The notes below the pieces were generated by a model. It saw nothing but the letters and a program-made list of their open reading frames with translations, was not told where the DNA came from and did no database searches. A stretch of DNA of 64,000 nucleotides. It comes from Conyzicola lurida (GTDB lineage: Bacteria; Actinomycetota; Actinomycetes; Actinomycetales; Microbacteriaceae). Position 1 is the stretch's first letter. The number at the start of each line of letters is the position of its first letter. Positions 5,522-50,551 of the stretch are shown here, in pieces. Location: assembly GCF_014204935.1 (NCBI RefSeq), contig NZ_JACHMJ010000001.1, forward strand, positions 682,001 to 746,000. The letters run 5' to 3'. Made by a program: the position numbers and the translations under genes.

Positions 5522-6657
5522 CCCTCGCAGACCTGACGACCGCGGACACCCGCGTCGACGAAGAGACGATCCGCGCCCTGCCCAAGGCCGAGGTGCACGT
5601 GCACCTCGAGGGCGGTTTCGACCTCATCGACCTCATCGACCTCGCCAAAACGGCGGGCGTCCCCCTGCCCGGCCCCGCACGCTCGCTCTTCGACGTGAGC
5701 ACGCACGACGCGGTCGAGGCCCCCCAGATCACCTCCGGCGGCGGTGCCAAGAACGGTGTCGGCGTCGGAGGCCTCAGCGGCTTCCTGAAATTCCTCGACT
5801 GGGAGTGCGGACTCGTCACCACCCCCGAGCAGGCCGCCCGCACCGCGTACAAGTTCGCCGCCCGCGAGAGCGCATCCGGCATCCGCTACGCCGACGCCGT
5901 GATCAACCCCACCCACTGGAGCGCGTGGGCCGGCCGAACCCCGCAGCTGTTCGAGGCCTTCGCCGCCGGACTCGACGAGGCGGCCCAGGACGGCCTCGCC
6001 GAGATCGGACTCTGCCTGTCGCTGCTGCGGTCGCAGAGCGGCGCCGAGGCCGTCGAGATCGTCGAGTGGATGTCGGCCGCCCGACCCGCGCGTGTCGTGG
6101 CGCTCTCGGTCGACGGCGACGAGCGCGTCTCCGGTCGCACCGGCGCGAAGTTCGCCGACGCCTTCACCCTCGCCCGCGACGCCGGATTCCACCGCACGGT
6201 GCACGCCGGCGAATCGAGCGGACCCGAGGGCGTATGGGACGCCGTCGACCTGCTGCACGCCGAACGCGTCGACCACGGCGTGCGCTCCATCGAAGATCCC
6301 GCCCTCGTCGCCCGCCTGGTCGAGAGCGAGGTGTCGCTCGGCATCTGCCCGCGCTCCAACGTCACGCTCGGCATCTACCCGGACTGGGCGAGCCACCCGA
6401 TCGAGAGACTCCGCGAGGCCGGCGTCACGGTCACGGTCAACACGGACGACCCGGCACCCCTCGGCACCCGTCTCGAGTCCGAGTGGGCCATGTGCGCCGA
6501 CACCTTCGGCTGGTCGCTCGCGGACCTCGGCGAACTCGCGCACAACTCGGTGCGCGCGAGCTTCGCCAACGACGACCTCAAGCGCGACCTGCACAGCGAA
6601 ATTTCCTCTTTTATTACGGATGCCGCGGCCGCCGATACGGCAGAATCACAGTCATGA
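5518..6657 (+). CDS. Adenosine deaminase family protein
   Basis: A 379-aa metal-dependent deaminase. The family set is complete: 'PKAEVHVHLEG' (His27 and His29, zinc ligands), 'HAGE' (His229 ligand, Glu232 catalytic), 'VDHGVRS' (His253), 'SNVTLG' and 'VNTDDPA' (Asp310 ligand). Adenosine deaminase converts adenosine to inosine; relatives act on adenine, N6-substituted adenines or aminodeoxyfutalosine, and sequence alone does not separate them. An insertion rich in Gly after residue 70 precedes the substrate-binding helices. It starts at a GTG inside a GTGA overlap with the ATPase and overlaps the next gene by ATGA, so it is part of the transport operon. Confidence 0.88.
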
Positions 6658-8492
6658 GCACCGCGCTGCGGCCAGACCTGCTCCCGACCAACGAGGAGCT
6701 GGCGGTGCTGCGCCGGGTCGCGATCGGGCAGGCGCCCGCCGACCTGATCATCCGCGGCGGATCGGTACTGTCGGTGCACACGGGCGAGTTCCTGCTGCGC
6801 GACGTGGTCGTCTCGGGCCGGCACATCGCGGCGGTCACCCCGGTCGGGCACTTCGACTGCGAGACCGTCATCGACGCCGCCGGAAAGCACGTCCTGCCCA
6901 CGTTCATCGACGCGCACCTGCACATCGAGTGGACGATGCTCACGCCCGGCGAGCTCGCCCGGCTGAGCGTGCCGCGCGGCACCACGACCGTGCTCACCGA
7001 CCCCGACGGGCTCGCCAACGTCGCGGGCATCGACGGTATGGACTTCATGCGCGAGACCGGCACCCCGTTCCGCATCTTCGAGCAGGTCAGCCCCTCGACC
7101 CCGGTCAACGCTGCACTGGAGCGAGGGGGAGCGGTGATCGCCGAACAGCTCGTGCTCGACCGCCTCGACGACGCCCGCTCGGTCTCGCTCGGCGAGGGCA
7201 ACCCGTTCGACCTGAGCGACGTCGCCACCAACCGGTTCCGCCAGGCGATGGTCGCCGGCAAGCGCATCACCGGCCACTCGGCGCGGCAGAGCGGCGAGGG
7301 ACTGTGGGGCTACCTCGCGGCCGGCGTCGGCGACGACCACAACGCGGCGACGATCGACGAGGTGCTGGAGCGCGTGCGTCTCGGCGCCATGATCACCCTG
7401 ATGAGCGGCTCGATGAACGACAACACGGTCGAGGTCTTCGCCGACCTCGACCGGGTCGGCCCCGCCCTCGACCACATGTCGTTCTGCGCCGACGACAAGC
7501 ACGTGCTCGACATCGCCACCGAGGGCCACATCGACCACCACGTGCGTCAGGCGATCGCCGCGGGCATCCCCGCCGCGCAGGCCTACCGCATGGCCAGCTG
7601 GCAGCCCGCGCTGTACTACCGGCTCGACCACCTGATGGGTTCGGTCACCCCGGGCCGGCTCGCCGACCTGCAGATCATCGACGACCTCGCCGGAGTGCGG
7701 GCCGAGCGCGTGATCGTCGGCGGAGAGCTCGTCGCCGTCGACGGCGTGCCGTACTTCGACAACACCGACGACGTGCCCGAGTGGCTCACCGCCACCATGC
7801 ACGTGCCGGAGGAGTTCCCCGCCTCTCTGCTCGCGGTGCCGGCTCCCGGCGAGACCGCGACGGTGCAGGCGATGGAGATGTACGACGGCTACTTCAAGCG
7901 CGCCTTCCACGTGGCCCTGCCCGTCGTCGGCGGGGCGGTCACGTCCGACGTCGAACGCGACGTACTCAAGATCGCCGTGGTCGACCGGCACTACGGCGAC
8001 GGCCAGTGCGGGGTCGGATTCGTGCGCGGCTTCCAGCTCGCCCGCGGCGCCCTCGCCGTCACCATCAACTGCACGAACGCCAACATCGTCGCGGTCGGCA
8101 CCAACGACGACGACATCGCGGTCGCCGTCGGCGCGTTGCGCGACCAGGGCGGCGGTTTCGTCGTCGTCGACGGCGGCGAGGTCGTCGCCCGGGTTCATCT
8201 GCCGGTCGGCGGCATGATGAGCGCGGCCCCGTGGGAGACCACCGCGGCGCAACTCTCCACCGCGAACGACGTGGCATTCGAACTGGGATGTCGCATTCGC
8301 TCGCCCTTTATGGTTCTGTCGTTTGTGGGGCTCGGTGTCGTTCCCGACCTTGGGCTCACGGAACTCGGTCTGATCGACGCCACGAGCCAGAGTTTCATCG
8401 ACCTGGTTCTCACGTCGGGCCCCGACGGCATCGCCTGCCGCTGCCCGAATCACGACTATCCCGTGCACAGCATCATGGAGGACCACTCGTGA
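6654..8492 (+). CDS. Adenine deaminase-like amidohydrolase
   Basis: This 612-aa protein matches adenine deaminase (adenine to hypoxanthine and ammonia) in layout: N-terminal beta segment, 'FIDAHLHIEW' with metal ligands His88 and His90, 'VPRGTTTVLTDP', 'GHSA', 'CADDKHVLD', and the adenine-deaminase C-terminal domain with 'LPVGGMMS' and 'LSFVGLGVVPDLGLTELG'. It departs from the classical motifs: 'HIEWTML' replaces the usual HIESSM, and 'DPDGLANVAG' replaces DPHEIANV, so the His there is missing. A C-terminal 'CRCPNHDYPVH' segment is also unusual. The fold is certain; adenine as the substrate is less so. The ATG overlaps the preceding stop by ATGA. Confidence 0.82.
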   Translation: MSTALRPDLLPTNEELAVLRRVAIGQAPADLIIRGGSVLSVHTGEFLLRDVVVSGRHIAAVTPVGHFDCETVIDAAGKHVLPTFIDAHLHIEWTMLTPGELARLSVPRGTTTVLTDPDGLANVAGIDGMDFMRETGTPFRIFEQVSPSTPVNAALERGGAVIAEQLVLDRLDDARSVSLGEGNPFDLSDVATNRFRQAMVAGKRITGHSARQSGEGLWGYLAAGVGDDHNAATIDEVLERVRLGAMITLMSGSMNDNTVEVFADLDRVGPALDHMSFCADDKHVLDIATEGHIDHHVRQAIAAGIPAAQAYRMASWQPALYYRLDHLMGSVTPGRLADLQIIDDLAGVRAERVIVGGELVAVDGVPYFDNTDDVPEWLTATMHVPEEFPASLLAVPAPGETATVQAMEMYDGYFKRAFHVALPVVGGAVTSDVERDVLKIAVVDRHYGDGQCGVGFVRGFQLARGALAVTINCTNANIVAVGTNDDDIAVAVGALRDQGGGFVVVDGGEVVARVHLPVGGMMSAAPWETTAAQLSTANDVAFELGCRIRSPFMVLSFVGLGVVPDLGLTELGLIDATSQSFIDLVLTSGPDGIACRCPNHDYPVHSIMEDHS

Positions 8493-9262
8493 CAATCAAC
8501 CGACCGCTGCCCGTCGACGCCGCGGCCCGTTCCGAAGACGACCGCATCCGCGGGGGAGTTCTGCGCTTCGTCCGCGAGGCGGCACTCGCCCACGAGTCGC
8601 TGCCCGGCGAGGTCGAACTCGCCAAGCGGCTCGAGTGCACGCGCCAGCAGGTGCGCCACGCGCTCTCGTCGCTCGAACGCCAGGGAATCGTCAAGCGCCG
8701 CCAGGGCGCGGCGACCGTCGTCGACCCGGTCGCCCTTCGCATGAGCGTGCGGCTCGAAGAGCAGCTCGAGCACTCCGAACTGCTCGCCCGCATGGGCTAC
8801 CAGTCCGCCGTCGAGGTGATCGAGTCCGAACTCATAGCGATGCCCGGCTCGATCGCGCCGCTGCTCACCTCCCAGGCCGGACCGACCGCACTCCGCGTGG
8901 TCAAACGCTGGACCGCCGACGGCGTGCCCGCCATGGTCGCGGAGAACCACGTGGCGTTCCCGCGGGACGTGCCCGACGACATCGTCGGCGAAGAGTCCGT
9001 CTTCACCCTCGCCGAGCGGGTCTGGGGCGAGTCGATCGTCTGGGAGGTCGCCACCCCCGGCGTCACCATCCTCGACGCCGAACGCGCGGAACTCCTCGGC
9101 CTGCCGGTCGGTGCCGCCGCCCTCACGCTCGAGATCATCGGCACCACCGTGAGCGGCCGCCGCACCTTCCACGCGTTCGAGACGCACAACCCCGCCATCG
9201 TCAGCTACTCCTTCGTGCGCACCGTGCGGCCGCCGTGGAGCAACTCGTACTCCGGCGACTAG
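8489..9262 (+). CDS. GntR family regulator with UTRA ligand-binding domain
   Basis: A 257-aa transcription regulator. Residues ~10-75 form the winged helix ('VELAKRLECTRQQVRHALSS', then 'LERQGIVKRRQGAATVVDP'). The rest fits a UTRA domain, the HutC-type sensor of small molecules, with 'RVVKRWTADGVPAMVAENH'. It starts at a GTG overlapping the stop of the adenine-deaminase-like gene (GTGA). Being last in the operon, it probably controls its own operon in response to the transported compound or a breakdown product. The ligand is unknown. Confidence 0.88.
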   Translation: MTINRPLPVDAAARSEDDRIRGGVLRFVREAALAHESLPGEVELAKRLECTRQQVRHALSSLERQGIVKRRQGAATVVDPVALRMSVRLEEQLEHSELLARMGYQSAVEVIESELIAMPGSIAPLLTSQAGPTALRVVKRWTADGVPAMVAENHVAFPRDVPDDIVGEESVFTLAERVWGESIVWEVATPGVTILDAERAELLGLPVGAAALTLEIIGTTVSGRRTFHAFETHNPAIVSYSFVRTVRPPWSNSYSGD

Positions 9263-9296
9263 CCGGCTCCGTCATCCGCCCGACCCAAGGACCAGC

Positions 9297-10430
9297 ATGA
9301 TCTCGCGCCTCTCACCGACCGCCCCGCCCGCCGACGAGCAGGCCTGGATCGACACCGTCACCGAGCTCGCCGTCGGCTTCGCCGAGCGGGCGTCCCACTA
9401 CGACGAAGTCGGCGAGATCCCCGTCGAGAATCTCGAGGCGCTCGCGACGAGCGGGCTGGATGTCGCGTGCCTGCCGGTCGCGGCCGGGGGACAGGGCCTC
9501 TCCTTCCGCACCATCGGCGCGGTCATCTCGATCATCTCCGCGGCCTGCCCCTCGACCGGGGCTCTCTGGCTCATGCACATCGGCGCCGCCTACGGTCTCG
9601 TCACCCTCGGCTCGCCGACGGCATCGGCGTTCTTCGCCGCGGAGCTCACGGCGGGCAAGCGCTTCGCGAACGCCCTCTCCGAGCCGACGAGCGGCAACAT
9701 GTTCCTCATGCCGCAGCAGGCGGCCGAGCCCGTGGAGGGCGGCTACTCGCTCGCGGGCGCGAAGCGGTTCGTCTCCGGCTGCGAGATCGCCGACTACTAC
9801 CTCACCAACACGCTCGTCGACGGCGCGCCCGCGTTCTTCGGCGTCGCCCGCGACGAGACGGTCAGCTTCGTGCCGATCTGGGACACCATGGGCATGCGCG
9901 CCACCCGCAGCCAGCTGATGAGCTTCAACGGCACGCTGCTGCGCGAGGAGTTCCGCTGCGCCCGCCCCGCGCCCGAGCAGGCGAACCTCATCTCGGCGGG
10001 GTTGCCCTTCGTGTCGATCGGCATCGCCCAGTCGGCGCTCGACGCGTTCTCGGCGCAGGCGCGCGGACGCGTCATCCCGAGCACGGGGGAGCCCCTCTCG
10101 AAAATGCAGTGGCTGAAGTTCGACACCGCCGCGCAGTACACGCAGCTGCGGGCGGCACGCCTGCTCGCCGAGCAGACGATGTGGCTCGCCGACATCGCGC
10201 ACCCCGACGCGACGATGGTCGCGGTCGAGGCGAAGTACCTGGCGAACGAGGTCGCGAAGACCGTCGCCGCGCTCGGCGTGAAGGTGGGCGGCGGTTCGGG
10301 CTACCTGCGCACGTCCCCGATCCAGCGGCACTTCCGCGACGCGCAGGCCGGCGCGCTGATGGCCTACTCGGTCGAGGTCTGCCAGGACGTCATCGGCGGC
10401 TGGGTGCTCGACCCCGAGCCCGCCCCCTGA
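9297..10430 (+). CDS. Acyl-CoA dehydrogenase-fold flavoprotein (possible monooxygenase-like subgroup)
   Basis: A 377-aa protein with acyl-CoA dehydrogenase organisation: N-terminal helical domain ('SGLDVACLPVAAGGQGLS'), middle beta domain ('LAGAKRFVSGCEIADYYL', 'WDTMGMRATRSQLMSF') and C-terminal helical domain. The C-terminus reads 'SGYLRTSPIQRHFRDAQAG' rather than the YEGT-type segment carrying the catalytic Glu of many true dehydrogenases. This resembles the flavin-dependent oxygenase or nitrososynthase branch. Start ATG 9297 has AAGGA about 5 nt upstream. It lies 35 bp after the GntR gene and may be co-transcribed. The substrate is unknown. Confidence 0.8.
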   Translation: MISRLSPTAPPADEQAWIDTVTELAVGFAERASHYDEVGEIPVENLEALATSGLDVACLPVAAGGQGLSFRTIGAVISIISAACPSTGALWLMHIGAAYGLVTLGSPTASAFFAAELTAGKRFANALSEPTSGNMFLMPQQAAEPVEGGYSLAGAKRFVSGCEIADYYLTNTLVDGAPAFFGVARDETVSFVPIWDTMGMRATRSQLMSFNGTLLREEFRCARPAPEQANLISAGLPFVSIGIAQSALDAFSAQARGRVIPSTGEPLSKMQWLKFDTAAQYTQLRAARLLAEQTMWLADIAHPDATMVAVEAKYLANEVAKTVAALGVKVGGGSGYLRTSPIQRHFRDAQAGALMAYSVEVCQDVIGGWVLDPEPAP

Positions 10431-10566
10431 CTCCGGTTCGTCGGAGCGACGCTGAGCGACGTCGCGCTCGCGGTGTTGTGTCGCGGGGCCGCTGAGGTTT
10501 GTGCCGCACGCGGATGCTCGTGCAGGCGCGTGCGCGACAAATCACCGCGCGCCGCTGGCGAGACGG

Positions 10567-11328
10567 CTACGGCTCCGGCGTGAGCTCGGGCGCGCCGTCG
10601 ATGGTGCGGCCGAGGCGGTTGCTCGCCGTCGTCATGTGCGTGCCCATCGCCGCGGCGACCGCGGCGGGGTCGCGCGTCGTCAGCGCCTCGAACACGGCGC
10701 GGTGCTCGTCGAGTGCGTTGACGGCGTCGTCCTCGGCCTGCAGGCCGCGCTCGACCCAGACGCGCAGCAGCGACCGGATGCTCTGCAGCAGGTCGAGCAG
10801 CACCTGGTTGCGCGAGCCGCGGGCGATCTGCAGGTGGAACTTGAGGTCGGCCTCGATGAACCGGCTGCGGTCGTTCACCGTCTCGCTCATGATCTCGACC
10901 TGGCGCCCCAGCTCGCGTAGCTCGCGGTCGGTGAGGTTGACGGCGGCGAGGGTCGCGGCGAACACCTCGAGCTGTGCGCGCAGCTCGATGAGGTCGGCCG
11001 TGCGCGGCGCGCCGAGCATGAGCCCCCAGCTGAGCGTCTCGGGCAGCAGCTCCGAGGCGTTGCCGCGCAGGTAGGTGCCGGAGCCGGGACGCACGTCCAC
11101 GATGCCCAGGATCTCGAGGGCCGCGAGGGCCTCCCGTACGGCGGAACGGCCGATACCGAGGGATGTCGCGAGCTGCCGTTCCGCGGGCAGGCGGGTTCCG
11201 GGCTCGATCTCCCCGCTCGTGAAGTAGTCGAGCAGTCGCTTGGCGACCGCGCTCACGGCGGTGCCGCTCGGAACGCTTCCGATCGCGGCACTCATTTGGT
11301 CGGCGGTGTTACCGGGATAGGCAGGCAT
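10567..11328 (-). CDS. FadR subfamily GntR regulator (FCD domain)
   Basis: A 253-aa repressor-type protein. It has a winged helix at residues ~20-90 ('TRLPAERQLATSLGIGRSAV', 'LEILGIVDVRPGSGTYL') and a helical FCD domain ('DLIELRAQLEVFAATLAAV', 'FHLQIARGSRNQVLLDLL', 'DEHRAVFEAL') that usually binds carboxylate or sugar-acid ligands. Met12 is a possible alternative start. It is transcribed away from the MFS-kinase-isomerase operon, with 135 bp between them, and most likely regulates that operon. A sugar acid such as apionate would be a typical FCD ligand; this is inference. Confidence 0.9.
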   Translation of the reverse strand: MPAYPGNTADQMSAAIGSVPSGTAVSAVAKRLLDYFTSGEIEPGTRLPAERQLATSLGIGRSAVREALAALEILGIVDVRPGSGTYLRGNASELLPETLSWGLMLGAPRTADLIELRAQLEVFAATLAAVNLTDRELRELGRQVEIMSETVNDRSRFIEADLKFHLQIARGSRNQVLLDLLQSIRSLLRVWVERGLQAEDDAVNALDEHRAVFEALTTRDPAAVAAAMGTHMTTASNRLGRTIDGAPELTPEP

Positions 11329-11371
11329 GGGAGAACTCAGAATACCCGCTCGGTGAGCGGACTTTAACTAT

Positions 11372-11400
11372 TTGCAAATTGGTCAACCGGTTGTTAGGTT
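11372..11400 (+). promoter_or_regulatory. Promoter of the sugar-acid operon with a palindromic candidate operator
   Basis: TTGCAA (11372-11377) and TAGGTT (11395-11400) are separated by 17 bp, a plausible sigma-70-type promoter. The spacer contains the perfect palindrome CAACCGGTTG at 11384-11393, in a position where a bound FCD repressor would block RNA polymerase. The MFS gene starts 64 nt downstream with AAGGGAG before its GTG. Confidence 0.55.
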
Positions 11401-11463
11401 TGACCCTCGAGTGCGAGCGAACTGCATCGAACGATCTACCGAGCGATAACAAGGGAGTTACCA

Positions 11464-12858
11464 GTGGCCAACCCGAGCGTGGAAACCAAGGTTTCCGCCG
11501 TCGAGAAATCGACCATCAGGAAGGTGTCGATCCGGCTCGTCCCGTTCGTCGCCCTCATGTTCTTCATCAACTACCTCGACCGGTCGGCCATCGGCTTCGC
11601 CGGACCGAACGGTATGAACGACGACCTCGCACTGACCGTGACCCAGGTCGGATTCGCCTCCGGCGTGTTCTTCATCGGCTACATCCTCCTCGAGGTCCCC
11701 TCCAACCTGGCGCTCGCCCGCTTCGGCGCCCGCCGCTGGCTCGCCCGCATCATGGTCACCTGGGGCATCGTCGCGGTCCTCTTCACCTGGGTCGGCAGCT
11801 TCGAGCACCTCGCGATCCTGCGCTTCATCCTCGGTGTCGCCGAAGCCGGCTTCTTCCCCGGCGCCATCCTGTTCCTCAGCCTCTGGGTCCCTTCGCGTCA
11901 CCGCGGCAAGATCCTCGCGCTCTTCTACCTGGCTCAGCCGCTCAGCACCGTCATCGGCGCACCGCTCGCCGGCCTCCTCATCGGCGCCCACGGCTTCCTC
12001 GGCCTCGAGGGCTGGCGCGTGATGTTCCTCGGTGTCGGCCTGCCCGCGATCATCGTCGGCCTCATCGCCTGGTTCTACCTCAAGGACAAGCCCACCGACG
12101 CCAAGTGGCTCACGCGTGAAGAGCAGCAATGGCTCACCGCAGAGCTCGCGGCGGAAAAGACCAAGACCGAGGCCCTCCACGTGGTCAAGGGCAAGCAGCA
12201 CGGCGGACTCCGCACCGCGTTCTCGAGCGGCCGCGTCTGGGTTCTCGCGTTCATCTACTTCGGCTTCATCTACGGCCTGTACACCCTCGCGTTCTTCCTG
12301 CCGACGATCATCGCCGGGTTCCAGGAGATCTACAACGTGGAGTACAACGTCTTCGAGCGCGGCCTGATCACCGCCATCCCGTACATCCCCGCCGCCTTCG
12401 CCCTCTGGTTCTGGACCAAGGACGTCTCCAAGCGCGGACTCAAGACCTGGCACATCGCCGGTCCCGCGGTCGTCGCTGCGCTCACCATCCCGCTCGCGCT
12501 GTTCGCCGGTTCGCCCGCGCTCACCGTCGCGATCATCGCGCTGACGGCCATAGCGATCTTCGCCGTGCTGCCGAACTTCTGGACCCTGCCCACGCAGTTC
12601 CTCACCGGTGCCGCAGCCGCGGCCGGCGTCGCGCTGATCAACACGGTCGGAAACCTCGCCGGCTTCGGTGCCCCGTACATCACGGGTGCCGTCGCGGACG
12701 CCACGAAGGACGCCAACGGCGAACCGCAGTACTTCGTCCCGATGGCGATCGTGGGCTTCTTTATGCTGCTCTCCGCCGTTTTGATGGTGTTGCTGGCCCG
12801 TGCCGGGAAGAAGAACGCCCCGGCAGACGGCGACGTCGCCGTCACCATCGCACATTAG
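11464..12858 (+). CDS. MFS transporter, anion:cation symporter type (probable sugar-acid uptake)
   Basis: A 464-aa membrane protein with about 12 hydrophobic segments. The first span is followed by 'NYLDRSAIGFAGPNGM' and 'LARFGARRWLARIM', typical of the ACS group that carries tartrate, phthalate, glucarate and related anions. A basic/acidic central loop at residues ~200-240 separates the two halves. The GTG start at 11464 has AAGGGAG 6-12 nt upstream. It is the first gene of the operon for a four- or five-carbon sugar acid and is the only transporter in it, so it is the likely importer of the pathway substrate. Confidence 0.88.
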   Translation: MANPSVETKVSAVEKSTIRKVSIRLVPFVALMFFINYLDRSAIGFAGPNGMNDDLALTVTQVGFASGVFFIGYILLEVPSNLALARFGARRWLARIMVTWGIVAVLFTWVGSFEHLAILRFILGVAEAGFFPGAILFLSLWVPSRHRGKILALFYLAQPLSTVIGAPLAGLLIGAHGFLGLEGWRVMFLGVGLPAIIVGLIAWFYLKDKPTDAKWLTREEQQWLTAELAAEKTKTEALHVVKGKQHGGLRTAFSSGRVWVLAFIYFGFIYGLYTLAFFLPTIIAGFQEIYNVEYNVFERGLITAIPYIPAAFALWFWTKDVSKRGLKTWHIAGPAVVAALTIPLALFAGSPALTVAIIALTAIAIFAVLPNFWTLPTQFLTGAAAAAGVALINTVGNLAGFGAPYITGAVADATKDANGEPQYFVPMAIVGFFMLLSAVLMVLLARAGKKNAPADGDVAVTIAH

Positions 12859-12864
12859 TCACCC

Positions 12865-12891
12865 GGGGCAGCCGCGATCGGCGGCTGCCCC
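12865..12891 (+). other. Intercistronic stem-loop between transporter and kinase genes
   Basis: Eleven perfectly paired bases (12865-12875 with 12881-12891) enclose a 5-nt loop and no T-run follows. It sits between the transporter stop and the kinase start and could slow 3' decay or partly end transcription, lowering or separating expression of the enzymes from that of the transporter. Confidence 0.6.
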
Positions 12892-12916
12892 GCCCTCAGC
12901 TTCAGGAGTTCACCCC

Positions 12917-14662
12917 ATGACTCGTCTGTTCAACGATCCGACCGAGTTCGCCGACGAAATGATCGACGGCTTCGTCGCCGCGAACCACCTGCAGGTGCGC
13001 CGCGTCTCCGGCGGAGTCGTGCGCTCGACGCGCTCGACCCCCGACTCCGTGGCCGTCGTCATCGGCGGCGGTTCCGGCCACTACCCGGCCTTCGGCGGTC
13101 TCGTCGGCCAGGGCCTCGCGCACGGCGCGGCCATGGGCAACCTCTTCGCCTCCCCCTCGGCCGGGCAGGTCTACTCGGTCGCCACCGCCGCGAACAACGG
13201 CGGCGGCGTCCTGCTCAGCTACGGCAACTACGCCGGCGACGTGCTGCACTTCACCCAGGCGCAGGAGAAGCTGCGCAACGAGGGCGTCGACTGCCGCACC
13301 GTCACCGTCACCGACGACATCGCGAGCGCCTCCATCGCCGAGAAGCACAAGCGTCGCGGCATCGCCGGCGACCTCACCGTCTTCAAGGCAGCGGCCGCCG
13401 CCTCCGAGGCCGGATACTCGATCGACGACGTCGAGCGCGTCGCCATCCTCGCCAACGAGCGCACCCGCAGCATCGGCGTCGCCTTCACCGGCTGCACGCT
13501 CCCCGGCGCGGACACCCCGCTCTTCACCGTTCCCGAGGGCCGCATGGCCGTCGGCATGGGCATCCACGGCGAGCCCGGACTGCGCGAGACCGACGTGCCG
13601 AGCGCCGACGGCCTCGCCGACCTGCTCGTGGGCGAACTGCTCGCCGAACTGCCCGACGGAATCGGGCAGGCCGACGGCCAGCGCGTCGGCGTGATCCTCA
13701 ACGGCCTCGGTTCGGTCAAGTACGAAGAGCTGTTCGTCGTCTACAAGCGCGTCGCCGCCCTGCTCGAGGAGGCCGGCCTCACGGTCGTCGACCCCGAGGT
13801 CGGCGAACTCGTCACGAGCTTCGACATGGCGGGCGTCTCGCTCACCCTGTTCTGGCTCGACGACGAACTCGAGACCTTCTGGCGCGCGCCCGCCGACACC
13901 CCCGCGTACCGCAAGGGATCGGTCGGCGCCGCCGAGCAGATGGACGAGGCCGAGATGCACGACTCCGTGGCCACCGCCGCGGTCGTCGAGCCCGGCAGCC
14001 CCGAGTCGCAGGCCGCCGCCGTCACCGCCCTCGCCGCGATCGAGGCCGTCCTCGCCGTCATCGAGGAGAACGCCGACGAACTCGGGCGCATCGACGCCGT
14101 CGCCGGCGACGGCGACCACGGAGTCGGCATGCAGCGCGGCGCCCGTGCCGCAGCCGCCGCCGCCCGCGACGCCCAGGCCAAGGGCGCGGGTGTCGAAACG
14201 CTCCTCGTCTCGGCCGCCGATGCGTGGGCCGACCGTGCCGGCGGAACCTCCGGTGCGCTCTGGGGCGTTATGCTCCGTGCACTCGCCGGCGAGGTCGGCG
14301 ACACCGCCGCCCCGACGGCAGAATCCGTGTCGGCCGGCGTCACCGCCGCCCGCACCGGCATCCAGTCGTTCGGCAAGGCCGAGGTCGGCGACAAGACCAT
14401 GGTCGACGCGATCGTCCCCTTCACCGACACGCTCGCGGCCGAGGTCGCGACCGGTAAGGGACTGACCGCCGCCTGGTCGACCGCCGCCGACGCGGCCACC
14501 GCCGCCGCCCGCGAGACCGCCGACCTCCTTCCCCGCATGGGACGCGCGCGTCCGCACGCGGAGAAGAGCCTCGGCACGCCCGACGCGGGAGCCCACTCGT
14601 TCGCGCTCATCGTGCAGTCCATCGCCGTGGTCCTCACGGCAGAAAAGGGAGAAACAGAATGA
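12917..14662 (+). CDS. lerK: Two-domain dihydroxyacetone-kinase-family protein, probable L-erythrulose 1-kinase
   Basis: A 581-aa DhaK-DhaL fusion. The DhaK half has '[15 protein letters not shown]' and '[10 protein letters not shown]', whose His forms the hemiaminal bond with the ketose. The DhaL half has the nucleotide and Mg site '[15 protein letters not shown]' and '[12 protein letters not shown]'. ATP-dependent kinases of this layout phosphorylate dihydroxyacetone or erythrulose. The neighbours here, RpiB-like and TPI-like isomerases, are the partners known from L-erythrulose catabolism in mycobacteria, so L-erythrulose 1-phosphate is the expected product. AGGAG lies 9 nt before the ATG. 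It overlaps the next gene by ATGA. Confidence 0.72.
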
Positions 14663-15129
14663 CCGACACCCTCCGTATCGTCATCGGAAGCGACGACGCC
14701 GGCTTCGACTACAAGGAGATCCTGAAGAAGGACCTCGAAGCGAACCCCGGAGTCGCCTCCGTCGTCGATGTCGGCGTCGACGCCGACGGCCACACCGCCT
14801 ACCCGCGCGTCGCGATCGCCGCCGCCGAGCTGGTGGCCAAGGGCGAAGCCGACCGCGCGCTGATCTTCTGCGGCACCGGCCTCGGCGTCGCCATCTCCGC
14901 CAACAAGGTCGCCGGCATCCGTGCCGTCACCGCCCACGACAGCTTCTCCGTCGAGCGCGCCGTGCTGAGCAACAACGCGCAGGTTCTCACCATGGGCCAG
15001 CGCGTCATCGGAATCGAGCTCGCCCGCCGCCTCGTGCGCGAGTGGCTCACCTACCGCTTCGACGAGTCGAGCGCGAGCGCCGAGAAGGTCGCCGTGCTGA
15101 GCGAGTACGAGGCGACAGGCTCCTGCTGA
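14659..15129 (+). CDS. derI: RpiB-like isomerase, probable D-erythrulose 4-phosphate isomerase
   Basis: A 156-aa RpiB/LacA-family protein: '[12 protein letters not shown]' at the N-terminus (substrate-binding Asp region), catalytic Cys71 in '[15 protein letters not shown]', and '[15 protein letters not shown]'. RpiB proteins interconvert aldose and ketose phosphates. In tetrose pathways a homologue turns D-erythrulose 4-phosphate into D-erythrose 4-phosphate, which feeds the pentose phosphate and aromatic pathways. It overlaps the kinase by ATGA and the TPI-like gene by one base. Plain ribose 5-phosphate isomerase is the alternative, but the context argues for the tetrose. Confidence 0.7.
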
Positions 15130-15866
15130 TGACCGACCGCAGAGCGACCGTCGGCGTGAGCCTGAAGATGTACTTCGGGCACGCGCAGACGCTCGCGTGG
15201 TGCGCAGAAGTCGCACGAGTCGCGCGCGAGCACGACGGTGTCGACGTCTTCGTCATCCCCGACTTCGTCTCCATCGTCGACGCCGTGCGCGTCTTCGACG
15301 GAAGCGGCGTGACCGTCGGCGCCCAGGCCCTGTCCTGGGACGACGCCGGCGCGCTAACCGGCGAGGTCAGCGGTTCCGTGCTCGCCGAGGTCGGCGTCGG
15401 AGTGGTCGAGGTCGGCCATGCCGAGCGCCGCCGCATCTTCGGCGAGACCGAGGCGATCGTGGCGTCGAAGACGGCCGCCGCGCTGCGCAACGGCCTCGCG
15501 CCCGTGCTCTGCATCGGCGAAATCACCGAGGGGCCAGCGGATGCCGCGGCCGACGAATGCCTCCGTCAACTGGAGGACGCCCTGAACGGCGCTCCGGCGG
15601 GCAAGGTCATCGTCGCCTACGAGCCCGTCTGGGCCATCGGTGCCGCGCAGCCCGCGCCGACCTCGCACATCCGCGCGGTCAGCGCGCGCCTCCGCGCCGC
15701 CGTCGCCGACTGGACGGACCGTGACGGCAGCGTCGTGATCTACGGCGGCAGCGCCGGACCCGGCCTGCTCACCGAACTGGGCGACGACGTCGACGGCGTC
15801 TTCCTCGGCCGGTTCGCCCACGACCCCGCCGCTCTCGCGGCCGTACTCCAGGAGGCGACCCGATGA
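15129..15866 (+). CDS. lerI: Triose-phosphate-isomerase-like protein, probable L-erythrulose 1-phosphate isomerase
   Basis: A 245-aa TIM-family isomerase. Lys13 in 'VSLKMYFG', His97 in 'VEVGHAERR' and Glu165 in 'AYEPVWAIG' correspond to the TPI catalytic Lys, His and Glu. The usual Asn of 'NWKMN' is replaced ('SLKMY'), and the phosphate loop reads 'IYGGSAGPGLLTEL'. These deviations suggest it is not the housekeeping enzyme. Homologues next to the Dha-type kinase interconvert L-erythrulose 1-phosphate and D-erythrulose 4-phosphate. The start ATG overlaps the previous TGA by one base; the end overlaps the next gene by ATGA. Confidence 0.72.
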   Translation: MTDRRATVGVSLKMYFGHAQTLAWCAEVARVAREHDGVDVFVIPDFVSIVDAVRVFDGSGVTVGAQALSWDDAGALTGEVSGSVLAEVGVGVVEVGHAERRRIFGETEAIVASKTAAALRNGLAPVLCIGEITEGPADAAADECLRQLEDALNGAPAGKVIVAYEPVWAIGAAQPAPTSHIRAVSARLRAAVADWTDRDGSVVIYGGSAGPGLLTELGDDVDGVFLGRFAHDPAALAAVLQEATR

Positions 15867-16654
15867 TCGGTCTCGGTACCTATTCCTTCTTCTGGCAGCA
15901 CTCCGAGCTCTCGCCCCAGCGGCTGACGCTCTCCGACATGCTCCAGCTCAGCTCCGACGAGGGCGTCGAGGTCTTCCAGATCTGCGACTACGCGCAGGTC
16001 GAGGACCTGTCGACGTCCGGGCTGCGCGAGCTGAAGGCGACAGCCGACGACCTCGGGATCGCACTCGAACTCGGAACCCGGGGCGTGGCATCCGCCCATC
16101 TCGACACGTACCTCTCGATGGCGACCGCTCTCGGCGCCACCACGGTGCGCAGCATGATCAACACCGCCACCGAGAAGCCGACGCTCGCCGAAGCGCAGGC
16201 CCAGCTCGAGGGCGCGCTGCCTGCCTGGGCCGACGCGGGGGTCGACCTCGCGCTCGAGACGTACGAGCAGATCTCGTCGACCGACCTCGTGTCGCTCGTC
16301 GAGGCCGTCGCCCACCCGAATCTGGGCATCTGCCTCGACCCGGCCAACTCGGTCGCGGCGCTCGAGAACCCGCGCGACGTCATCGACCGCACCGCCCCGT
16401 ACGTGAAGAACGTGCACTCCAAGGACTTCGCGTTCACCCGCCGCGGTGGATGGGTCGGTTTCACTCTCGAGGGCGTGCCCCTCGGAACCGGGCTGCTCGA
16501 CTACGACTACCTCCTCGAGGTAGTGCGTCCCGAGGAGCGCGGCATCAATCAGATCATCGAGCACTGGCTTCCGCTCGGCGAGTCCATCGAGGACACCATC
16601 GCCCTCGAGAACACCTGGAATACCTCCAACCTGCAGTACCTAAGGAGCAAGTAA
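15863..16654 (+). CDS. oiaC: Xylose-isomerase-like TIM barrel protein, probable 3-oxo-isoapionate decarboxylase
   Basis: A 263-aa AP-endonuclease-2/xylose-isomerase-like barrel. The four expected metal ligands are visible: Glu132 ('ALETYEQ'), Asp159 ('CLDPANS'), His185 ('NVHSKDF') and Glu233 ('IIEHW'). The N-terminus 'GLGTYSFFWQHSE' and 'VFQICDYAQV' fit the subgroup associated with apionate degradation, where the enzyme decarboxylates 3-oxo-isoapionate to L-erythrulose. Immediate neighbours (erythrulose kinase and isomerases before, PGDH-type oxidoreductase after) support this. The alternative is a sugar epimerase. It ends one base into the next ATG. Confidence 0.62.
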   Translation: MIGLGTYSFFWQHSELSPQRLTLSDMLQLSSDEGVEVFQICDYAQVEDLSTSGLRELKATADDLGIALELGTRGVASAHLDTYLSMATALGATTVRSMINTATEKPTLAEAQAQLEGALPAWADAGVDLALETYEQISSTDLVSLVEAVAHPNLGICLDPANSVAALENPRDVIDRTAPYVKNVHSKDFAFTRRGGWVGFTLEGVPLGTGLLDYDYLLEVVRPEERGINQIIEHWLPLGESIEDTIALENTWNTSNLQYLRSK

Positions 16655-17508
16655 TGTCGAACCCCATTTCCATCGCTGTCATCGGTGCGGGCGGAAAGAT
16701 GGGCACGCGAGTGTCCAACAACCTCGCCAAGACCGACCACACGGTGTACTACAGCGAGAACTCGCCCGCCGGCCAGGCCCGCATGGCCGACCTCGGCCGC
16801 ACGGTGACTGCCAGCGAAGAAGCCGTCGTCCTCGCCGACGTCGTCATCCTCGCGGTGCCCGACCTGGCCCTCGGCCCGGTATCGAGCGCGCTCGTCCCGC
16901 TGCTGCGTCCGGGCACCGTCGTGCTGACCCTCGACCCCGCCGCCGCGTACGCCGGTCTGCTCACCACGCGTGAGGACGTCGTCTTCGCCGTCGCGCACCC
17001 GTGCCACCCGTCGGTCTTCCTCGAGCGTCACACGCCCGAAGAGTACGCCGACACCTTCGGCGGGATCGCTGCCCCGCAGGACGTCGTCGCGGCCATCGAG
17101 AGCGACGACGACGAGAAGCGCGCCATCACCGAGGCGACCATCTGCGCGATGTACGCGCCGGTCATCGACGTGCACTGGGTCACCGTCAAGCAGCTCGCAC
17201 AGCTCGAGCCGACCCTCGTGGAGACCATCGCCTGCATGATCGGCGCACTCCTCAAGGAGTCGCTCGACGAGGCGATCAACACCATGGGCGTCCCGGAGCC
17301 CGCCGCCCGCGCCATCCTGCTCGGCCACACGCAGGTCGCCCTCGCGAACTCGCTCAAGGGCGACAACCCGTTCTCCGACGCGTGCCTCATCGCGATGGAC
17401 TACGGCCGCTCGAACATCATCAAGGAGGACTGGAAGAAGGTCTTCCAGGACGACGAGCTCGACAAGAACCTCGCCGCGATGCTGCACCTCGACGCCATCA
17501 AGCGCTGA
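16654..17508 (+). CDS. apnO: NAD-dependent oxidoreductase with phosphogluconate-dehydrogenase-like C-terminus, probable D-apionate oxidoisomerase
   Basis: A 284-aa protein with an N-terminal Rossmann motif ('VIGAGGKMG', residues 9-17) and a helical C-terminal domain in which 'WVTVKQLAQLEPTLVET' and 'DYGRSNIIKEDWKKVF' fit the PGDH_C-type family. Members include D-apionate oxidoisomerase, which oxidises D-apionate with isomerisation to 3-oxo-isoapionate. A cluster of His/Cys residues ('VAHPCHPSVF') is a likely part of the active site. AAGGAG at 16642-16647 precedes the ATG. It is last in the operon, 13 bp before a terminator. Other sugar-acid dehydrogenase activities remain possible. Confidence 0.62.
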   Translation: MSNPISIAVIGAGGKMGTRVSNNLAKTDHTVYYSENSPAGQARMADLGRTVTASEEAVVLADVVILAVPDLALGPVSSALVPLLRPGTVVLTLDPAAAYAGLLTTREDVVFAVAHPCHPSVFLERHTPEEYADTFGGIAAPQDVVAAIESDDDEKRAITEATICAMYAPVIDVHWVTVKQLAQLEPTLVETIACMIGALLKESLDEAINTMGVPEPAARAILLGHTQVALANSLKGDNPFSDACLIAMDYGRSNIIKEDWKKVFQDDELDKNLAAMLHLDAIKR

Positions 17509-17521
17509 CTGCCGAACGCAG

Positions 17522-17555
17522 AAAGCCCCGTCGTCCGAGAGGATGGCGGGGCTTT
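17522..17555 (+). terminator. Rho-independent terminator of the sugar-acid operon
   Basis: Nine paired bases (17522-17530 with 17547-17555) frame a 16-nt loop, and the 3' arm runs into TTTT. It lies 13 nt after the last stop codon of the operon. Confidence 0.85.
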
Positions 17556-17574
17556 TCGTGTGCGCACCGGCGCA

Positions 17575-17691
17575 CGTCCGACAGGACCGATCGCCCGTCT
17601 CGCCCGTCCGACAGGACGGATCGCGCGGCGCCGGCCGCGGCATCCTGTCGACCAGCTCTGCCTGACCAGACGAGTGGATGCCGCGGCCGGC
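17575..17691. repeat. Cluster of palindromic intergenic repeats (REP-like)
   Basis: Two direct copies of CGTCCGACAGGAC start at 17575 and 17605. The second pairs with TCCTGTCG at 17643-17650. A perfect 16-bp inverted repeat follows (17630-17645 with 17676-17691, 30-nt loop) whose arms contain GGATGCCGCGGC. The 19-mer GGCGCCGGCCGCGGCATCC at 17627-17645 recurs at 56557-56575. The CCGACAGGAC core recurs at 21171-21180. Such features suggest a family of extragenic palindromes. Confidence 0.75.
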
Positions 17692-17747
17692 CCACCCGGA
17701 CCGGCACGGGCCCGGCATGCCCGCCGGCCGCGCGGCAGAATGGAGGC

Positions 17748-18353
17748 ATGGGGTTGTTCGGACGCAAGAAGCGCGTGTATCTGGGCGAGTACGTCGAACC
17801 CGCGCCGGTCGAACCGCCGCCGGTCGAGCGCGTCGTGCACGAGGGCGCCCTCATCGGCGAGTCTGTCGTGCGTCTCGTCCTGCGCAACCGTGTGATCGTC
17901 GACGCGCTGCGCGAGCACAAAGACCTCGACCGTCCCGGTCTCGCGCAGCTCGCCGCGGTCGAACTCGAGCGTCTCGCCCAGCACGAGCGCGAATCGGCCG
18001 AGCGGGTGCAGGGCCGCCGCGAACGCCAGGAGGCGGCCGACGCGACCCGCAAGCGCAGCGCCCTCGACCCCGACGACATCGAGGAGAGCCACCGGCGCGA
18101 ACGGCTGCATCGGGAGATGGCCGACGCTTTCGTGACGCGGGCCACCGACGGCGCGCTGCTCGACAGCCTGGTCGAACGGTCGTTGGAGGAGGCGTGGTCC
18201 GAGATCGGTCCCGTGTTCCTCGAGCGCGCGGGGGAGCAGTCGCTCGTCGTCGACCGGGATTCCCGCTACGAGCAGGAACGCGTCGACCGGGTCGGTACGC
18301 TGCTCGCCCTCGACCTGACGAAGCTCGCGATCGAGCGCGGCGTCGAGCTGTAG
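17748..18353 (+). CDS. Hypothetical protein, charged, probable coiled coil
   Basis: A 201-aa protein not recognised. It starts with 'MGLFGRKKRVYLGEYVEP' and a Pro/Val-rich stretch, followed from about residue 60 by a highly charged Glu/Arg-rich helical region ('QHERESAERVQGRRERQE') likely to form a coiled coil, and a more ordered C-terminus ('LLDSLVERSLEEAWSEIGPV'). There is no signal peptide or membrane span. GGAGG lies a few bases before the ATG at 17748. It stands alone between a repeat cluster and the converging rmuC. Codon use matches its neighbours, so it looks native. Confidence 0.75.
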   Translation: MGLFGRKKRVYLGEYVEPAPVEPPPVERVVHEGALIGESVVRLVLRNRVIVDALREHKDLDRPGLAQLAAVELERLAQHERESAERVQGRRERQEAADATRKRSALDPDDIEESHRRERLHREMADAFVTRATDGALLDSLVERSLEEAWSEIGPVFLERAGEQSLVVDRDSRYEQERVDRVGTLLALDLTKLAIERGVEL

Positions 18354-18362
18354 AACCGAGCC

Positions 18363-19562
18363 CTAGGACGCGCTCGGCAGGTCGAACTCGAGCGCGGTCA
18401 GCGGCCTGGCCGACGACTCGGTCGTCGCGGCGGTGCCGATCACCTTCGACTCGTCGAGAACGTTGAGCTTGCGCGCGGTCACGAGCACCCGGCTCTCGAG
18501 CGAGTTCGCGAACGCGTTGTAGTTCGTCACCGTCGAGTCGATCGAGCGGCGCAGCTTGTCGGCGTGCTCCGACAGGAGCGACAGCCGCTGGTACAGCTCC
18601 TTGCCGAGGTCGAACAGGTTCTTCGCGTTCTCGGTGAGCACGTCCTGCTGCCAGGTGAACGCGACCGTCTTGAGCACCGACCAGAGCGTGACGGGGGAGG
18701 CGAGCGCCACCCGCTTGCCGAACGCGTAGTCCATGATGCTCGGATCGGCCTCCATGGCGGAGGCGACGAGCGACTCGCTCGGGATGAACGCGATCACCAG
18801 CTCGGGTGACGCGTCGAGCCCCGCCCAGTACGCCTTGCTCGCGAGCGTGTCGATGTGATTGCGCACCACGCGCACGTGCTGCTTCATCAGCGCCTCGCGG
18901 CGCGCGCCTTCTTCGCCGGTCGCGGTGACGGCGATCTGCGACGCCTCGAGGTAGGCGGCGAACGGCACCTTCGCGTCGACCGCGATGTTCTTGCCGCCCG
19001 GCAGGTGGATCACCATGTCGGGGCGGCCGGCACCCGCGTCGGAGGAGATCGACGACTGCACGTCGAAGTCGACGCGCTCGATGAGTCCGGCGGCCTGCAC
19101 GACGTTGCGCAGCTGGGTCTCGCCCCAGACTCCGCGTGTGCCGTTGTTGCGCAGCGCGGAGGCCAGCGACTCCGCGGTGCCGCGCAGGCGCTCCTCCGAC
19201 TCGGTCGCGTTCTTCAACTGTTCGCTCAACTGCCCGTGCTGCAGGCTGCGCTGCGCCTCGAGCTCGGCGACCGTCTGCTGCATCGTTCGCAGGGTCTCCT
19301 GCACGGGCGAGAGCGCCTGCAGTACCCGGCTGTCGTTTTCGTGCCGCTGCTGGTTGACCCGCTGCTGGCCGAGCAACTGCTCGACCTGCTCGCGCAGCGC
19401 CACCGCCGTGGCGTCGGCGGCCGCCGCCTCGGCCTTCAGCTCGGCGACGACGTCGAGCGGCTGGCTCGACGCGGGTCGCGAGCGCGCCACGAGCAGCCCG
19501 ATCACGCCGCCGAGCACGACGCCGATGACCAGACCGAGGAGCAGGGAGATGATGGGGTCCAT
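18363..19562 (-). CDS. rmuC: DNA recombination protein RmuC
   Basis: A 399-aa protein. Residues ~4-24 form a membrane anchor ('PIISLLLGLVIGVVLGG'). Residues ~40-130 are Glu/Gln-rich coiled coil. The RmuC nuclease-like domain follows, with 'GVWGETQLRNVVQAAGL' and 'GGKNIAVDAKVPFAAYLEA'. RmuC limits certain DNA rearrangements at inverted repeats. The start at 19562 (Met before 'DPIISLLL') was chosen because the 27-residue upstream extension is Arg-rich and unlike RmuC. It converges on the hypothetical gene with a 9-bp gap and diverges from the dehydrogenase gene. Confidence 0.9.
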   Translation of the reverse strand: MDPIISLLLGLVIGVVLGGVIGLLVARSRPASSQPLDVVAELKAEAAAADATAVALREQVEQLLGQQRVNQQRHENDSRVLQALSPVQETLRTMQQTVAELEAQRSLQHGQLSEQLKNATESEERLRGTAESLASALRNNGTRGVWGETQLRNVVQAAGLIERVDFDVQSSISSDAGAGRPDMVIHLPGGKNIAVDAKVPFAAYLEASQIAVTATGEEGARREALMKQHVRVVRNHIDTLASKAYWAGLDASPELVIAFIPSESLVASAMEADPSIMDYAFGKRVALASPVTLWSVLKTVAFTWQQDVLTENAKNLFDLGKELYQRLSLLSEHADKLRRSIDSTVTNYNAFANSLESRVLVTARKLNVLDESKVIGTAATTESSARPLTALEFDLPSAS

Positions 19563-45189: not shown

Positions 45190-50253
<5,064 letters not shown>

Positions 50254-50433
50254 AACACCTTCTGTCTGCAGCAATGCAGATGATGAGTATGCTTGCGTCC
50301 ACTATGTGGTTCCTGATCTACGGTCGGGAACCGCGAACACAACCACTGTGTTCCACCCCCACAGCCACCAGGCTGCAGGACGGACACACAGTGCGCATGT
50401 TTCGCGAAACCTTTTTGATACAGATCAAAAGAG

Positions 50434-50551
50434 TTTCGGCGGCCATAGCGAGAGGGAAACGCCCGGTCACATTCCGAACCCGGAAGCTAAGACTCTCTGC
50501 GCCGATGGTACTGCAAGGGGGACCTTGTGGGAGAGTAGGACACCGCCGGAC
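50434..50551 (+). rRNA. rrf: 5S ribosomal RNA
   Basis: The sequence from TTTCGGCGGCCATAGCGAG to AGGACACCGCCGGACA has the 5S layout, including 'CCCGGTCACATTCCGAACC' and 'GGGAGAGTAGGAC'; the first and last ten bases pair. About 118 nt; ends are approximate. It follows the 23S by 180 nt. Confidence 0.94.

Follow-up and report, generated by a model that had tools for sequence, protein, structure and literature searches.

In the genome of Conyzicola lurida (a single contig of 3.64 Mb), we analyzed a stretch of 64,000 nucleotides (C1:682001-746000, hereafter the window) that contains a GntR/FCD regulator gene and, divergent from it, six plus-strand genes (10567-17508). It is probable that this operon encodes the lower half of a pathway for D-apiose and D-apionate that uses OiaC-type decarboxylation, and that the upper half is encoded 1.66 Mb away by the genes for a short-chain dehydrogenase/reductase (SDR) and an ApnL-family protein. 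In the proposed pathway, D-apionate would be imported by a major facilitator superfamily (MFS) protein or made inside the cell, an ApnO-like enzyme would oxidize and rearrange it to 3-oxo-isoapionate, and an OiaC-like enzyme would decarboxylate the latter to L-erythrulose. LerK would then form L-erythrulose 1-phosphate, whose isomerization by LerI and DerI would supply the pentose phosphate pathway with D-erythrose 4-phosphate. Upstream of these steps, the SDR, a predicted D-apiose 1-dehydrogenase replacing the Gfo/Idh-type ApsD, and the ApnL-family lactonase would turn apiose into D-apionate, and the FCD regulator would control both loci via the 13-mer GGTCAACCGGTTG.

Conservation of the Operon

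The window order regulator-MFS-LerK-DerI-LerI-OiaC-ApnO is found in 38 of the 86 loci compared, the window counted, and the seven-gene arrangement is therefore not due to chance. The 86 loci consist of the best 80 of 334 OiaC relatives from a species-genome scan, two plasmid loci, three further genomes and the window; because only the best 80 of the 334 relatives were studied, the survey is biased to close relatives. Another 13 loci, all from Enterobacterales and including that of Pectobacterium carotovorum DSM 30168, have a divergent DerI gene followed by MFS-LerK-LerI-OiaC-ApnO, and the remaining 35 carry partial sets or other orders, some being cut by contig ends. An ApnO of at least 55% identity is present in 71 of the 80 OiaC loci, a relative of 41-44% identity in six and none in three. 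The closest relatives among those studied are from Glaciihabitans tibetensis (OiaC, 75%; ApnO, 95%). Of 396 genomes sampled from the phylum, 4 contain an OiaC relative (E ≤ 1e-30), and the window genome is one of these.

An earlier note, made on this DNA alone, had described six co-directional and mostly overlapping genes beside a divergent FCD regulator, and all seven genes do lie at the positions and on the strands that it gave, with four overlapping junctions. The enzyme set and order that it listed are borne out by the Pfam families, by the 38 loci of the same order and by P. carotovorum, whose locus has the same enzyme set.

Some loci depart from these patterns. No recognizable LerI gene lies between DerI and OiaC in locus L011 (genome G257), and LerI is placed after ApnO in L045. 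Six loci of Propionivibrio/Accumulibacter type (L025, L027, L029, L031, L032, and L073) encode an OiaC of 58-63% identity with an ApnO relative of just 41-44% that forms its own clade; LerK, LerI and DerI were not found nearby, and the substrate may differ. L027 also has genes for a DctP-type transporter and a four-carbon acid kinase family protein.

The ApnO-Like and OiaC-Like Enzymes

The PGDH_C protein of the operon is the product of the sole PGDH_C gene found in the genome. Its best PDB match is 5T57 (E 2.8e-63), which we take to be ApnO of Cupriavidus. It is 42% identical to 5T57, 42% to an OiaK-linked protein and 59% to its Pectobacterium counterpart. A tree of 88 rows places it with the other OiaC-linked proteins, that of Pectobacterium included, on one side of a long branch (99/98 support). 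Across both clades (87 rows, 3c24 left out), 53 alignment columns, the HPxHP motif among them, show at least 97% conservation. In Paraburkholderia sprentiae, Rhizobium sp. K102 and Marivivens sp. LCG002, relatives of this protein have genes annotated as OiaK or OiaX as direct or close neighbors; a check of the OiaK annotation gave 822 bits against a cut-off of 700.

The TIM barrel encoded just before it has no NCBIfam match and is 55% identical over 262 residues to the P. carotovorum protein; on this homology it is predicted to be an OiaC, an enzyme that was reportedly assayed from Pectobacterium. At least 97% of 88 rows share its residues E132, D159, H185 and E233, which are likely metal ligands. 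A RuBisCO-like protein (PF00016) was found in 5 of 14 control genomes and not in the window genome, which, together with the enzyme set, supports the decarboxylating route to erythrose 4-phosphate that the earlier note had proposed. The sequence D-apionate to 3-oxo-isoapionate to L-erythrulose to erythrose 4-phosphate is supported by gene context; all of its substrates and catalytic steps are predicted.

Lower Steps and Transport

The LerK-like kinase scores above the NF011049 cut-off of 492 bits (Table 1), and its best counterparts in other operons are 58-76% identical. The LerI-like protein matches PDB entry 11ef ("L-erythrulose-1-phosphate isomerase", E 1.7e-35), ranked fifth after four triosephosphate isomerase (TPI) entries, and the TPI gene that scores highest in the genome is a different one. 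With three genes each for the TPI and RpiB families in this genome, neither isomerase gene of the operon is the only one of its kind. At the family level, these proteins are consistent with LerK-, LerI- and DerI-type enzymes acting on L-erythrulose; in PMC10733421, LerK, LerI and DerI are tetritol enzymes that form the route from L-erythrulose to erythrose 4-phosphate.

Relatives of all three (LerK, 61%; DerI, 84%; LerI, 54%) are encoded together a second time in the same genome (C1:421001-441000, about 5992-16367 of that fragment), next to genes for a PdxA-like dehydrogenase, a TIM barrel, an amidohydrolase, an MFS protein and a Tct transporter. This is perhaps a tetronate or tetritol cluster.

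The MFS protein of the window is 64% identical to the one encoded beside ApnO and OiaK in P. sprentiae. Since the OiaC and OiaK branches share just apionate and 3-oxo-isoapionate, the likeliest cargo is apionate or its lactone, and the protein probably imports one of these. The earlier note held that the acid itself is probably imported. Its argument from missing upper-pathway genes fails (see below), but acid import by the MFS protein, alongside internal production of D-apionate, is plausible.

The Distant SDR-ApnL Pair

The window genome encodes an ApnL homologue at C1:2357069-2358799, which is 37-50% identical to a conserved open reading frame (ORF) near the operon, i.e., within the fetched flanks of about 10 kb, in 20 of the 86 loci. 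Directly 5' of it lies the SDR gene, and the longest ORFs of the two overlap by 4 bp; on fragment L112, the SDR occupies 9233-10072 and the ApnL homologue 10069-11802. An SDR of 63-78% identity accompanies ApnL in 16 of the 20 loci; the other four are L060 (Pseudomonas japonica, with a Gfo/Idh protein instead), L072 (with only a 35% SDR), L075 and L083. Where ApnL lies outside the operon fragment, the SDR stands beside it in all eight of the actinobacterial fragments fetched for this reason and in neither of the two from Erwiniaceae. In Arthrobacter sp. NtRootA1, the operon, SDR, ApnL, two PF13204 apiosidase-like proteins, GH78 and GH43 are encoded within about 27 kb, with SDR and ApnL 8-11 kb from ApnO and a GH3 gene also present.

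The earlier note had found no apiose dehydrogenase or apionolactonase. In the genome as a whole there is an ApnL homologue behind an SDR, with the predicted operator of the operon in front; what stands is that no orthologue of the known ApsD type was found. The Rhizobium sp. K102 Gfo/Idh protein is inferred from the place of its gene to be ApsD, and the best of eight matches to it in the window genome has just 29% identity (68 bits) and was rejected as an orthologue. The SDR is predicted to be a new type of D-apiose dehydrogenase; none of its best 25 NCBIfam matches, to a glucose 1-dehydrogenase subfamily among others, reaches the cut-off. Among ApnL relatives, the Erwinia typographi protein reaches 537 bits for NF049900 (cut-off 750). 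In a Pfam scan of ApnL relatives from other genomes, nothing matched at E 1e-3, and what matched at up to E 10 was at chance level. A Fisher test of OiaC with ApnL over the 396 genomes gave p 3.9e-6, which is not independent evidence because the three genomes with both represent one family.

Genes for a GH36 protein and an ABC importer lie 5' of the SDR gene in the window genome (fragment L112). No role in the upper pathway is claimed for them, and GH36 relatives were not found in the other loci searched. Two ApnL genes appear to be damaged. The homologue of Rhizobium sp. K102 (L101, 15242-17070), within a cluster of OiaX, four-carbon-kinase and Gfo/Idh genes, has a broken frame, and that of Arthrobacter ISL-5 (L137) contains a stop; intact relatives exist.

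Predicted Operator and Regulon

The 13-mer GGTCAACCGGTTG occurs at exactly two places in the 3.64-Mb genome, one between the regulator and the MFS gene (11381-11393 of the window) and one just before the SDR gene (C1:2356177). With one mismatch allowed there are eight more places, while a reversed control pattern has three in all. Of the 48 intergenic regions compared between regulator and operon, 30 contain the 12-mer core GGTCAACCGGTT, as against 0 of 300 single-base shuffles. To be among these 48, a locus of the 86 had to have a regulator of at least 45% identity and, 40-700 bp away, a recognized next gene. Of the other 18 regions, 17, all from Streptomyces or the Streptomyces part of the tree, carry TTGGTNACCAA, and L079 (Arthrobacter pascens) carries neither. 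A position weight matrix was tried as a site model and set aside in favor of the exact-core count, as many of its Streptomyces sites fell in the coding sequence of the regulator.

In the window genome, Planctomonas and five Agreia, each fragment with SDR-ApnL has a single copy of the 10-mer GTCAACCGGT. It lies some 30-80 bp 5' of the SDR, the exact spacing depending on the SDR start codon. The expectation is 0.05 per fragment under an order-2 Markov model of four fragments. The five Agreia are close kin, so that these sites amount to about three lineages, all Microbacteriaceae. In NtRootA1, the 10-mer stands at other genes of the island, and it is absent from L137-L139. The second site of the window genome lies within a 24-pair hairpin between the ABC permease and SDR genes (L112, 9155-9215; -42.7 kcal/mol), with the 13-mer spanning the loop; the hairpin may be a terminator, an attenuator or an extended operator.

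The regulator has both an N-terminal GntR and a C-terminal FCD domain. It probably represses both the operon and the distant SDR-ApnL pair, and its binding to the two sites, like its response to an effector, is predicted. On balance, we lean toward an actinobacterial split apiose regulon, in which an FCD regulator would act through the palindrome GGTCAACC-GGTTGACC as its operator. It would control the OiaC-type operon together with two unlinked genes, one for a divergent ApnL lactonase and one for an SDR with no function assigned so far, which would be a D-apiose 1-dehydrogenase not related to ApsD.

Alternative Explanations

Several observations weigh against a two-locus apiose pathway. The sole NCBIfam match of the window-genome ApnL is to NF049900 (D-apionate lactonase), at 199 bits (E 1.3e-58) against a cut-off of 750. 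Its predicted structure (pLDDT 90) weakly resembles glycosidase folds (in the 50 matches listed, no TM-score normalized by query length exceeded 0.37), a resemblance on which the protein may be a glycosidase instead of a lactonase. No PF13204 apiosidase-like gene was found in the window genome, and two fragments from Arthrobacter (L136 and L137) lack the motif before the SDR. For the lower half, the DerI-like protein scores 147 bits for the DerI family NF051858, under its cut-off of 240, and 208 bits for the ribose-5-phosphate isomerase family TIGR02133, above its cut-off of 168. The earlier note had named clustering of the PGDH_C and TIM barrel proteins away from ApnO and OiaC as evidence against its reading, and this applies in part: the PGDH_C protein groups with the OiaC-linked proteins, Pectobacterium included, but 5T57 itself lies on the other side of the long branch, with 3c24 and three OiaK/OiaX-linked rows.

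The distribution of ApnL also counts against the two-locus pathway. Among 46 operon genomes without a nearby ApnL, a distant one was found in just 10 and not in the other 36, and none was found in the nearest relative G. tibetensis, in the 15 Streptomyces searched or in P. carotovorum, so the operon can exist without ApnL. The operon might then serve imported D-apionate only, the SDR-ApnL pair belonging to another pathway and the shared 13-mer being due to chance or part of a hairpin. The MFS gene is indeed conserved within the operon, and the second operator match, overlapping the 24-pair hairpin, could stem from the hairpin itself. We consider this explanation unlikely, given that the exact 13-mer has only two places in the genome, that the same core precedes SDR-ApnL in Planctomonas and five Agreia against 0.05 expected per fragment, that SDR and ApnL lie inside or beside the operon in 16 loci, and that apiosidase-like genes are present in the NtRootA1 island. 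Somewhat less probable still is an operon for a different five-carbon acid, e.g., a linear pentonate, from which the PGDH_C enzyme would make a 3-oxo acid and the TIM barrel erythrulose, with the lower steps unchanged. Decarboxylation of a 3-oxo pentonate would likewise yield a tetrulose, and the ApnO-like protein is in a clade of its own whose members were here identified by context only; the repeated linkage with ApnL-family genes, the apiosidase-like genes of NtRootA1 and an MFS protein shared with an OiaK-linked locus speak for apionate instead. That the operon serves erythrulose or tetritols, with the ApnO-like and OiaC-like genes incidental, is very improbable. The three lower enzymes are those of tetritol catabolism and a second set of them is present in the genome, but no polyol dehydrogenase was seen among the operon genes in Pfam and NCBIfam scans, and in 7 of the 86 loci, some cut by contig ends, OiaC and ApnO occur with the regulator, with or without MFS, and a search of the surrounding 9 kb found no LerK, DerI or LerI.

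Comparison with Known Systems

Degradation of D-apionate by the OiaC route was reportedly described by Carter and co-workers in 2018 in Nat Chem Biol. ApnO-, OiaC-, LerK-, LerI- and DerI-type genes are found together both in the window and in the P. carotovorum locus, whose ApnO and OiaC are only 59 and 55% identical to those of the window. The regulator is of the FCD type here and sugar-binding in enterobacterial loci, and DerI is inside the operon here and divergent there. The RuBisCO-like routes (OiaK and OiaX), such as those on plasmids of Rhizobium sp. K102 and Marivivens sp. LCG002, also use an ApnO-family enzyme, and K102 has LerI/DerI-like genes; in contrast, the window genome lacks a detected RuBisCO-like protein, decarboxylation is assigned to the TIM barrel, and ApnO is in the other clade. 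As in the ApsD-ApnL upper pathway, an ApnL-family protein adjoins a sugar dehydrogenase, which in the window genome is an SDR rather than a Gfo/Idh/MocA protein, while ApnL is divergent. P. japonica combines an OiaC operon with ApnL and, in place of the SDR, a Gfo/Idh protein (54% to K102). The steps from L-erythrulose to erythrose 4-phosphate are shared with LerK-LerI-DerI tetritol catabolism (Huang et al., 2015, as cited in PMC10733421), except that erythrulose would here arise by decarboxylation and not from a polyol dehydrogenase.

The pathway is thus of a known kind in a conserved actinobacterial form; the predicted SDR-type apiose dehydrogenase and two-locus regulon would be new. Among the matches listed, seen as titles and abstract openings, there was no paper on this operon in actinobacteria, and a search to which subscription papers were mostly closed found none on actinobacterial apiose/rhamnogalacturonan II catabolism or D-apiose in Microbacteriaceae. 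By these results, a wide range of actinobacteria would have a pathway for a sugar of plant walls, and the operator motif offers a means of locating scattered apiose genes. The results also demonstrate that the reading of a single window is insufficient for concluding that upper-pathway genes are missing.

Locus Layout and Other Observations

The probable start codons are ATG 12917 for the kinase, ATG 15129 for the TPI-like protein and ATG 16654 for the PGDH_C protein. With these starts, the last four gene junctions overlap by 4, 1, 4 and 1 bp; the gap between MFS and kinase genes is 58 bp. The hairpin 3' of the last stop codon (Table 1) was equaled in stability by 0 of 200 shuffles, and a simple terminator scan did not flag it. 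An ORF without a family match (17678-18466) and, on the opposite strand, RmuC come next, which suggests that the operon ends at the hairpin.

Table 1. Features of the predicted D-apionate operon (window positions).
Feature	Position	Strand	Evidence
GntR/FCD regulator	10567..11328	-	Pfam GntR 61.9 bits, FCD 95.2 bits
Predicted operator TTGGTCAACCGGTTGT	11379..11394	+	contains 13-mer GGTCAACCGGTTG at 11381-11393
MFS importer	11464..12858	+	Pfam MFS_1
LerK-like Dak1-Dak2 kinase (putative L-erythrulose 1-kinase)	12917..14662	+	Pfam Dak1+Dak2; NF011049 741 bits
DerI-like RpiB-family isomerase (putative D-erythrulose 4-phosphate isomerase)	14659..15129	+	Pfam LacAB_rpiB
LerI-like TPI-family isomerase (putative L-erythrulose 1-phosphate isomerase)	15129..15866	+	Pfam TIM 187 bits
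OiaC-like xylose-isomerase-type TIM barrel (putative 3-oxo-isoapionate decarboxylase)	15863..16654	+	Pfam AP_endonuc_2
ApnO-like oxidoreductase (putative D-apionate oxidoisomerase)	16654..17508	+	Pfam PGDH_C 197.5 bits
Hairpin, probable terminator	17516..17561	+	-35.5 kcal/mol, z -7.72

Elsewhere in the window, where no tRNA genes were found, the 16S, 23S and 5S rRNA genes stand in a row (45190-50551). Transaldolase-like and malic-enzyme-like genes flank the operon in L070 and further loci of enterobacteria, as read from the sequence with no search made; such flanks would fit an erythrose 4-phosphate product or may reflect the chance of insertion.

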